Source of the DNA: an uncultured Flavobacteriaceae bacterium
Lineage (GTDB): Bacteria; Bacteroidota; Bacteroidia; Flavobacteriales; Flavobacteriaceae
Direction of reading: 5' to 3'
Length of the DNA: 64,000 nt
Assembly: GCA_947494825.1 (NCBI GenBank)
Contig: CANLWN010000001.1
Location: forward strand, 1 to 64,000
This document shows positions 45,206 through 47,365 of this stretch, piece by piece. The notes beneath the pieces are model-generated. The model was not told the DNA's origin, made no database searches, and was given only the letters and a program-made list of their open reading frames with translations. Each line of letters begins with the position of its first letter. The first letter of the stretch is position 1. Made by a program: the position numbers and the translations under genes.

Positions 45206-45393
45206 TCAAGACCGGTATCGCGGACTTTGAGTATCGCATACAATACATCAATGCGCTCGCTTTGATAGTATCGGTATTACCATAAAAACGAACATCAGCT
45301 GAACATACCGGATTATAGGTATTCCAGGTTTTAATAAGAAATAGCAAAGATATACACGGCGTCATTTAATGTAGAAGGACCATTTTATCTACT

Positions 45394-45439
45394 AAAAAGC
45401 TGCATGGGAATTATTTAAAATACGCTATTCCCATACAGC
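45394..45439 (-). terminator. Intrinsic terminator after the peptide gene
   Basis: Arms 45399-45411 and 45427-45439 pair over 12 of 13 positions, with a loop of about 15 bases. Read leftward, the stem is followed by a run of five U (45394-45398). It begins 15 bases after the stop of the peptide gene, so it is the end of that transcript. Confidence 0.8.
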
Positions 45440-45453
45440 AAATCACTTAGACA

Positions 45454-45657
45454 TTAATAAGGAGGTTGGCAACAGGTACTACAGAACACGTTGGGCCAGG
45501 AACCGAGATAAACTTCCTGGGCACATCCGGTAGAGCAGGTACTGGAGATAGAGCAGCTACCGGCAGGTCCTCCCGCTCCTACGATGGTCTTCAATTCGTT
45601 GCGTTGAAGCAGCTCATCAACCTTCAAGTCCAAATTTTTAAAACTTAACTTTTTCAT
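45454..45657 (-). CDS. Cysteine-rich peptide precursor with double-glycine leader
   Basis: 67 residues. The N-terminal part fits the Bacteroidota natural-product precursor leader (MKKLSFKNLDLK, then ELLQRNELKTIVGAGG). Cleavage after G29-G30 would release a 37-residue core that starts PAGSC and holds six cysteines (C35, C41, C45, C59, C62, C63), with many Ser, Thr and Gly and a PPY end. No lysine, and only one acidic residue (Glu48), is present in the core. Six cysteines allow three disulfides; thioether rings are also possible. The gene lies 115 bases after a C39-like/VKOR/thioredoxin gene and is followed by a terminator. No peptide ABC exporter is seen nearby. Confidence 0.85.
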   Translation of the reverse strand: MKKLSFKNLDLKVDELLQRNELKTIVGAGGPAGSCSISSTCSTGCAQEVYLGSWPNVFCSTCCQPPY

Positions 45658-45740
45658 GATATAGAAACTTTAAAATTATATTTGCCTTGAACAATTTAGG
45701 ACACTCAAGGTTTATGTCCATTCTTCGCGAAAGAATATTG

Positions 45741-45768
45741 TTCGGGGCCCAAAGTTTTTATTTTGGGC
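45741..45768. repeat. Intercistronic hairpin between peptide gene and its oxidase gene
   Basis: GGCCCAAA and TTTGGGCC form an eight-pair stem around a short AT-rich loop, just after the stop of the large gene. The T-run lies on the rightward side, so it would terminate rightward transcription. In the leftward mRNA it could slow decay or shape relative levels of the two gene products. Smaller hairpins follow (around 45727 and 45700). Confidence 0.5.
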
Positions 45769-45772
45769 CTTT

Positions 45773-47365
45773 TTATCCTAGGATTTCCTTTAGGTCGGCA
45801 GCTCCATAAAATTCAATGGGCAGTTCATATCCGTTTACAAACAGGGTAGGGGTGTAGCTTATTTTTTCCTTCCGGCACCAGGCGCTCATGGCTCGTATTT
45901 TTGAGTCTTGCTGTGCCAACTCCCCATTTAGCGGATATTTATTTGCGAAAGCCTTATAGTCTTTTTTTGGAGCCATGTACCAACTATCCAAGGCCTCCTG
46001 CGTTTTATTTTCATCGCCTTGATCGGCTATTGCCAACAAATGCCTTACGGGCTTTGCCGTATGATCATCGCCGTTCGTTGTAGCGGTAAATAGAATTTGC
46101 AGGTTAATTTTGCCCTTCTTTACCAGTTCTTCCAGAATGGGATGTGTAGCTGCGCAAGGTCCGCAATAGGGATTACATACTTTGATGACGTTGTACTCCG
46201 CTGAATTATTTGTCACCAAAATTCCCAGTCCTTCCGTACTTGTTTCTATTTTTCTTGAAGCAGCAAGCAAATGCGATAGCACTTCTACGTTATTCTTGAT
46301 TTTTTTAAATCCCCTTTTATACTGCGTGGCCCCCCGGGCCTTGTCCAATACTGGCTTTATAAGCTTCCAGGCCAAAATGGGTAGCACCATTAGGACAACT
46401 AATGGAGGTAAGGTTTGCAGTGGAACAGGGTTTTCATAAAGACCACTAACATAGCCAACGATAATTTCCGCAATTAGGATGACCTGTACGCCCAGGCAAA
46501 ATTTGCACCATTGCTTGATTACAGCACCCTGATAGTAGGCAGATAGTAAGATTATGGGCAAGGTGGCAAAGCTGAGCAGGGTCAAAGCACTTAGGGAGGC
46601 ACCGGAAAATTGCTGCAACAGGACAAACAAAAACGTACCAAAAAAATAAGAAAACCCTAGTATGCTTAAACTTAGCCCTCCCTTTAAAAGCTTGGCGTGC
46701 TTAGAGTTTAGAACCGAATTGCAATTCACTTTTTTACCGCCGGAACAGAAGTTTTGCAATACGGGGTTGTATTGATCTACCTCAAACCATAATAAAGCGG
46801 TGCCCAAAGCAATCCCGCCAATTTTAAGCAAAAGATAAATCAGTATGAAAAGGGAAGCGCTAAATTCTGCCGCTTTTTCCGACGCGATAAAAGTGATTGT
46901 AGCCCATATGGCAAAAAATGCAAACAGTAGTACGGTTAAAAAATACACGAGTCTGCTCGATGCCTTTTTTTCCTCAATACGGGGTTCTCCGGCCTCTTCC
47001 GATTTATCCAAAAGCAAGCAGACCCCTGTCCATTTTTCCAGAAAACGCTCTTTGGATTCGCGTTTTGGGCTATTCGAATTGTCGAAATAGGAAATCGTGT
47101 TATCCGAACAATCCTGTACCACGTAAAAGGCCGAAGATTTTTTTAATTGAACCTGGGCAACAAGGGGCAGGGGCAGTTCCCTTAACTTCTCGTAAGTTAC
47201 CTTAACCGCCAAGGTATCAATATTATAGGTGTTTAGAACATCGGAAATGGCTAGCAAACTCGATTGATCCGCATGGGAAAGTATGGTATCCTCCAGATAG
47301 GACTTTGTATGCCTTACGTTTAGTAGGTTTAAAATTTTTCTTGTAACAAAAACCGTATGATCCAT
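45773..47365 (-). CDS. Fusion of degenerate C39-like, VKOR and thioredoxin domains
   Basis: 530 residues. Residues 1-120 resemble a C39 peptidase domain (ILNLLNVRHTKSYLED, SSLLAISDVLNTYNID, VAQVQLKKSSAFYVVQD), but the catalytic cysteine and histidine are absent. Residues about 138-335 are a membrane VKOR domain, with loop cysteines C207 and C215 and the redox pair C287-x-x-C290 (QWCKFC). Residues about 375-530 are a DsbA/thioredoxin-like domain with CNPYCGPC (C397, C401 and C404). VKOR passes electrons from new disulfides to quinone. With the peptide gene downstream, a likely job is to bind the leader and oxidise the core; that is inference. Confidence 0.85.
   Translation of the reverse strand: MDHTVFVTRKILNLLNVRHTKSYLEDTILSHADQSSLLAISDVLNTYNIDTLAVKVTYEKLRELPLPLVAQVQLKKSSAFYVVQDCSDNTISYFDNSNSPKRESKERFLEKWTGVCLLLDKSEEAGEPRIEEKKASSRLVYFLTVLLFAFFAIWATITFIASEKAAEFSASLFILIYLLLKIGGIALGTALLWFEVDQYNPVLQNFCSGGKKVNCNSVLNSKHAKLLKGGLSLSILGFSYFFGTFLFVLLQQFSGASLSALTLLSFATLPIILLSAYYQGAVIKQWCKFCLGVQVILIAEIIVGYVSGLYENPVPLQTLPPLVVLMVLPILAWKLIKPVLDKARGATQYKRGFKKIKNNVEVLSHLLAASRKIETSTEGLGILVTNNSAEYNVIKVCNPYCGPCAATHPILEELVKKGKINLQILFTATTNGDDHTAKPVRHLLAIADQGDENKTQEALDSWYMAPKKDYKAFANKYPLNGELAQQDSKIRAMSAWCRKEKISYTPTLFVNGYELPIEFYGAADLKEILG

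Follow-up and report, generated by a model that had tools for sequence, protein, structure and literature searches.

In an uncultured Flavobacteriaceae bacterium we identified a short locus that is reasonably likely to encode a leader-docked, quinone-linked oxidase maturing a small, disulfide-rich, secreted double-glycine peptide. The window, by which we mean the whole 64,000-nucleotide stretch of contig CANLWN010000001.1 analyzed here, carries the peptide precursor gene as an open reading frame of 67 amino acids (45454-45657, minus strand). Upstream of it, on the same strand, lies the gene for a C39-like/VKOR/DsbA-like fusion protein of 530 amino acids (45773-47365), the proposed peptide oxidase. 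An intrinsic terminator follows the peptide gene (45392-45439, minus strand; hairpin of -20.1 kcal/mol, z -5.8, then TTTTT). A preliminary description of this DNA had named the two open reading frames, the six cysteines of the peptide core and the terminator, and all of them were found again. The RNA pseudoknot and the membrane topology reported below are additions to it.

According to the proposed mechanism, the leader of the precursor would dock on the 530-amino-acid membrane protein at its C39-like domain, which is catalytically dead, and the DsbA-like domain would oxidize the core cysteines pairwise. Since the core has six cysteines, up to three disulfides could be formed. The VKOR domain would re-oxidize the DsbA-like domain and transfer the electrons to menaquinone. 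This oxidation step would take place in the cytosol, before export. The oxidized precursor would then be passed to a PCAT-type ABC exporter, encoded in a single copy at another site of the source genome, whose live C39 domain would read the same leader, remove it and export the core together with HlyD. A pseudoknot in the 5' leader of the peptide gene would set the precursor level. Leader docking, the direction of electron flow and the cytosolic side are what we infer from the observations described here. The peptide is most likely used against other bacteria, a putative role.

The fusion protein and its peptide partner

Pfam assigned a Peptidase_C39 domain (PF03412, 50 bits) to residues 8-123 of the fusion protein and a VKOR domain to residues 176-302, both above the cut-off, while a Thioredoxin match at residues 384-514 remained just below the threshold. 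An AF2 model based on an alignment of 19 relatives (mean pLDDT 82.9, pTM 0.56) consists of six long membrane helices and two soluble domains, the placement of the domains being uncertain because of the pTM of only 0.56.

The proposed leader-docking domain comprises residues 1-123 (46997-47365, minus strand). In the model, residues 1-129 match the solved structures of PCAT1 (Z 17.2), of leader-bound LahT150 (6mpz, Z 16.8) and of the C39-like domain of HlyB (Z 15.1), so that the segment folds as C39 with a Z of about 17 to both PCAT1 and LahT. The loss of the catalytic cysteine and histidine, already noted in the preliminary description, agrees with the alignment to ComA and 46 relatives. The ComA histidine aligns with A79, the cysteine position is occupied by H3/T4 (N-terminus MDHT), and the two catalytic residues never occur together in any of the 46 relatives. 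An active C39 protease was rejected on the absence of both residues, and the domain is called C39-like rather than a C39 peptidase because these residues are lost. A cysteine at residue 4 (MDNC), close to where the catalytic cysteine was lost, is retained in most close relatives; the histidine is gone.

The VKOR domain is a four-helix bundle at residues 169-312 (46430-46861, minus strand), supported by Pfam and by the fold (Z 13.5 to the VKOR-like 6wv8). It contains all four redox cysteines that had been claimed for it, with Cys207 and Cys215 in the loop and a Cys287-x2-Cys290 motif, and also a near-invariant Ser/Thr221. For the C-terminal part, residues 368-530 (45776-46264, minus strand), the expected CNPYCGPC motif is present, but the fold is that of DsbA, ScsC and BdbD rather than of a plain thioredoxin (Z 16.6 to ScsC, 15.1 to BdbD). 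This thioredoxin fold with inserted helices carries C401-G-P-C404 and a cis-proline (T505-P506), and C401, C404 and T505-P506 are invariant. Over the 46 aligned members, which share about 23-63% identity, all six redox cysteines and the cis-proline are invariant. We consider it very improbable that the fusion instead serves as a chaperone, reductase or isomerase which keeps the precursor export-competent, with the disulfides arising spontaneously or made elsewhere. From the VKOR and DsbA folds by themselves one cannot tell which way the electrons flow, and the exporter-side peptide of the source genome has no adjacent oxidase; a four-cysteine VKOR with DsbA is, however, the standard oxidizing pair feeding quinone, and reduction would need an electron donor, none of which recurs nearby.

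The fusion was found by protein search in 39 of 299 Flavobacteriaceae genomes, about 13% of the sampled species, and the source genome encodes three such proteins. Plasmids of Emticicia, Spirosoma, Hymenobacter, Aureibacter and Parabacteroides encode further fusions, whose annotation reads only "vitamin K epoxide reductase family protein" or names single domains. Otherwise, VKOR is found in few genomes of the class Bacteroidia (9/149), a scarcity that fits a dedicated role of the fusion.

The precursor is a short double-glycine peptide with a leader of 28-30 residues (MKKLSFKNLDLKVDELLQRNELKTIVGA, then GG), of a pattern common to its relatives, and a core with six cysteines. Processing after the double glycine had been expected to release a core of 37 residues. 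While the precursor was confirmed, the alignment with relatives suggests that the cut may follow residue 28 (G-A) and not residue 30 (G-G), so that the mature product may have 39 residues instead. Five species (the window, L020, L021, L096 and L097) share the same six cysteines, and purifying selection on the peptide is strong (in the core, pN 0.17-0.23 versus pS 0.66-0.82). Among the Pfam and NCBIfam families none matched the peptide above its cut-off, the best being a thiazolylpeptide precursor model with 19.2 bits (cut-off 25). At L020 and L022 the reading frame of the oxidase is broken; the peptide gene and the RNA element are still there.

For the association of the two genes a strict filter was applied, which accepts peptides with a basic start, a cysteine-free leader ending in GG or AG and at least three core cysteines, at most 1.4 kb downstream. 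It matches 40 of 47 oxidase loci and none of 172 control tiles, which argues against pairing by chance. Among the seven loci missed, L007 has the peptide just upstream, L052 has one upstream and L036 has the frame of the peptide without an ATG; no peptide was found near the oxidase at L003, L005, L006 and L032. L003 is the third oxidase paralogue of the source genome itself (C1:706338-707822) and overlaps the start of a same-strand gene of 296 amino acids. Two leader classes follow the two oxidase clades (15:3 versus 0:22).

The preliminary description had proposed that the dead C39-like part holds the leader while the VKOR-thioredoxin part oxidizes the core, and had named three findings that would speak against this: homologues commonly lying without a peptide gene, core cysteines not conserved in close relatives, and a segment that does not fold as C39. 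None of the three was obtained, and the proposal stands in this respect, with binding, oxidation and bond pattern as its conditional parts.

Peptides were also picked by the RNA element only and not by their cysteine content. In these peptides no cysteine occurs in 1,779 leader residues, compared with 371 in 2,937 core residues, and the number of core cysteines is even in 59 of 68 cores (39 with six; p 4e-10). Together with the invariant redox cysteines and the rarity of VKOR, the even counts indicate a dedicated role in disulfide formation. They also fit Cys-Cys pairing, which speaks against a lanthipeptide or radical-SAM product whose cysteines end in thioethers, with the oxidase incidental, a reading that we regard as hardly credible. 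A LanC-like gene at one Parabacteroides plasmid locus and a "thiopeptide-type bacteriocin biosynthesis protein" upstream at one Emticicia locus are in its favor. Over 26 loci, however, the neighbors of the oxidase include no recurrent dehydratase, cyclase or radical-SAM family, and a LanB/LanM-type dehydratase was absent as an open reading frame beside the peptide in the window and as a recurrent gene in the 26 loci. At the Parabacteroides distasonis plasmid locus (L129) the oxidase stands in a row with a six-cysteine peptide, a DUF4369 gene, a LanC-like gene, two glycosyltransferase-type genes and a peptidase-containing ABC exporter. This gut relative may add further modifications to its peptide.

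Membrane orientation and export

Six transmembrane helices are predicted for the oxidase, which place the C39-like domain, the VKOR cysteine loop and the DsbA-like domain all on the same side of the membrane. The density of lysine and arginine is 3.5-fold higher on this active-site side than on the other (0.184 versus 0.053), with the same direction in 46 of 46 members, and no signal peptide precedes residue 139, the N-terminal domain being 138 residues long. Judged by helix count and charge bias, the active-site side is probably the cytosol, so that oxidation most likely occurs there prior to export. In the VKOR of Synechococcus, whose active site is periplasmic, the tendency is opposite, the corresponding inner loop carrying KRWR and the outer loops few charges. 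Two stand-alone Bacteroidia VKORs that served as topology controls (L083 and L088) show the same charge bias as the fusion. The charge rule may therefore mislead, and the topology test is supportive but not decisive; these two proteins may also face the cytosol. Both are small and are encoded far from any double-glycine peptide.

The same enzyme could also face the periplasm, with the C39-like, VKOR active-site and DsbA parts outside and the disulfides made during or after export, which we consider rather unlikely. The well-studied bacterial VKOR-DsbA systems are periplasmic (PMC12453122, on relatives), the cytosol is reducing, and the TlpA-like proteins encoded in the operons are probably lipoproteins outside the cytoplasm. 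The charge bias throughout the family and the N-terminal domain without signal peptide argue against such an orientation, and, with the leader cut off at the cytosolic side of the exporter, there would be nothing left for a C39-like domain in the periplasm to bind. Leader docking and a cytosolic orientation are mutually supportive for the same reason, because only an attached leader can be held and its removal takes place at the cytosolic C39 domain of the exporter.

In 26 flanking regions three kinds of neighbor recur, namely HlyD, a peptidase-containing ABC transporter and a TlpA/redoxin-like protein about 500 amino acids long. The usual gene order in relatives is oxidase, peptide, TlpA-like protein, ABC exporter and HlyD, and it is the same in Emticicia. 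A live-C39 ABC exporter adjoins most of the relatives' loci, and such operons are spread across the phylum. The absence of an ABC exporter, as given in the preliminary description, is thus true within the 64 kb of the window but not for the genome, and the locus is not the self-contained unit it was taken for: in relatives the operons also encode HlyD, an ABC exporter with a live C39 domain and, often, a TlpA-like thiol protein, and the source genome keeps its exporter about 180 kb away. It has exactly one live-C39 ABC exporter (C1:225059), accompanied by HlyD, an RNA element of its own and a peptide of its own, with no oxidase beside it. Being the single live-C39 exporter of the genome, it probably serves three peptides and would export that of the window.

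An RNA element in front of the peptide gene

The 5' leader of the peptide gene contains a conserved RNA element with a hairpin and an H-type pseudoknot (45673-45741, minus strand), which was found by aligning the intergenic regions between oxidase and peptide genes. The resulting model, R1, was trained on copies beside oxidases and matches the window with 91.4 bits. The pseudoknot itself (45685-45719, minus strand) consists of stem 1 (GGACAT/GTGTCC), the loop AAA and stem 2 (CCTTGA/TCAAGG), and its 3' end lies 27 nt before the ATG of the peptide gene. The paired cells amount to 97% in stem 1 and 93% in stem 2, with two-sided changes in 10 of the 12 pairs. Over the whole structure, 99 cells show two-sided changes compared with 29.9 expected, and the signal collapses in slid registers. 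The upstream hairpin ATTCTTTCGCGAAGAAT (45720-45736, minus strand) has weaker support, with 74% of its cells paired. A closing helix (GAACA/TGTTC), which would compete with stem 2, is part of the minimum-energy fold; its covariation is non-significant, as 22 of 300 shuffles reach it. A conserved upstream open reading frame starting from an ATG in loop 3 of the pseudoknot was rejected by eye, since neither codon nor frame is kept. A search of Rfam 15, including lenient thresholds, gave only sub-threshold matches to unrelated families.

In a strand-neutral parse of the pseudoknot stems, G-U pairs outnumber A-C pairs by 29:3, which shows that the pseudoknot folds on the strand of the peptide gene. 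The opposite strand carries signals as well. A promoter -7-like TATATTTG (45677-45684, plus strand) at the edge of the pseudoknot and an intrinsic terminator with a strong hairpin just upstream of the RNA element (45744-45771, plus strand) bracket the pseudoknot (45677-45771), so that TATATTTG is a possible start of an antisense small RNA. We regard it as improbable that the intergenic element acts mainly as such an antisense RNA rather than as a pseudoknot in a sense 5' leader. The opposite-strand TAnnTTTG motif and the terminator occur together in 27 of 30 motif-bearing copies, both are present in the window, and the wobbles of the upstream hairpin (A-C 49 versus G-U 18) fit the other strand equally well or better. 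On the other hand, 49 of 79 copies have no opposite-strand promoter motif, the spacing to the peptide ATG is nearly constant, and the 29:3 ratio in the pseudoknot stems belongs to the sense strand.

The element marks peptide genes. Among 78 distinct copies, 70 precede a small open reading frame with a double-glycine leader and 3 one with a near-GG leader (73 of 78 together), and the frame usually starts 13-19 nt past the end of the RNA model. The RNA was detected in 38 and the oxidase in 39 of 299 genomes, with both in 29 (p 4e-24, for a model trained beside oxidases). This co-occurrence, like the agreement of leader class and oxidase clade, is partly a matter of shared ancestry. In genomes without a detected oxidase, a small double-glycine frame still follows nearly every RNA copy that was read. 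One of these copies (L120) is followed by an open reading frame of 175 amino acids. A single genome (G567, L063-L075) contains 13 RNA matches, nearly all in front of different cysteine-rich double-glycine peptides and some in tandem, and thus has a large, diversifying peptide repertoire. A degenerate copy in another genome (G130, L048 1372-1433) lies in front of the oxidase gene and not of a peptide gene. The pseudoknot as a sense-strand 5' leader probably controls the amount of precursor, and it is a candidate for a new class of cis-acting regulatory RNA.

Relation to known systems and biological meaning

The nearest known system is the bacteroidetocin operons, which also belong to Bacteroidota and have a parallel gene set, composed, in this order, of an uncharacterized five-TM protein, a small cysteine-containing peptide with a GG leader, a thiol oxidoreductase and an ABC transporter with a double-glycine peptidase (Coyne et al., 2019, PMC6671954). 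Deletion of the gene for the five-TM protein or for the oxidoreductase attenuates the toxin activity, and the migration of bacteroidetocin with and without reduction fits disulfides (PMC6671954). The five-TM protein could be VKOR-like, which is a guess on our part. Bacteroidetocin has a 15-amino-acid leader and a 42-amino-acid core with four cysteines, in contrast to 28-30 amino acids, 37-39 amino acids and six cysteines here, and the present peptide therefore does not fall under it. Neither a C39-like/VKOR/DsbA fusion nor an RNA element was reported for these operons (PMC6671954).

The VKOR-DsbA(Trx) fusion of Synechococcus (3KP9, 4NV6) likewise combines a four-cysteine VKOR bundle with a Trx-fold domain, but it has no C39-like domain, no peptide partner, a periplasmic active site and the opposite charge bias. 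An inverted VKOR of Aeropyrum pernix reportedly makes disulfides on the cytosolic side, in work attributed to Hibender et al. in 2017. It is an archaeal general system, not known to be peptide-specific or to have a C39-like domain. The work is cited in PMC12453122 and gives a precedent for the cytosolic side.

The C39-like and C39 domains of HlyB and the PCATs (3zua, 4ry2, 6mpz) have the same fold but are located on ABC exporters. The C39-like domain of HlyB is catalytically dead and helps to recognize the substrate. Unlike in HlyB and the PCATs, the dead domain here sits on the oxidase, with a separate live-C39 exporter alongside. Downstream-peptide RNA (RF01704) is also a structured leader before short peptide genes, but has no match to the present RNA in sequence or structure. 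A full-text literature search, with most subscription journals outside its reach, returned nothing on a C39-VKOR fusion or on the RNA element. The three-domain fusion, the leader-docking logic, the likely orientation and the RNA are absent from the papers searched, and the whole extends the known double-glycine peptide systems.

A general machinery for disulfide formation is said to be missing from Bacteroides (PMC6671954, citing Dutton et al., 2008). A peptide-dedicated oxidase would be present in about 13% of the sampled Flavobacteriaceae species and on gut and environmental plasmids. For genome mining, the pseudoknot provides a strong handle, since it locates cysteine-rich precursor genes which gene finders easily miss. 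Tentatively, and with somewhat less than even confidence, we propose a phylum-wide class of ribosomal peptides that would receive their disulfides in the cytosol, with the leader still attached, from a quinone-linked oxidase recognizing this leader by a dead protease domain, and whose precursor genes in Flavobacteriaceae would be preceded by a new class of cis-acting pseudoknot. If the topology is true, these systems would run counter to the rule that in bacteria such disulfides arise outside the cytosol, and they would provide a leader-addressed tool for the production of disulfide-rich peptides.
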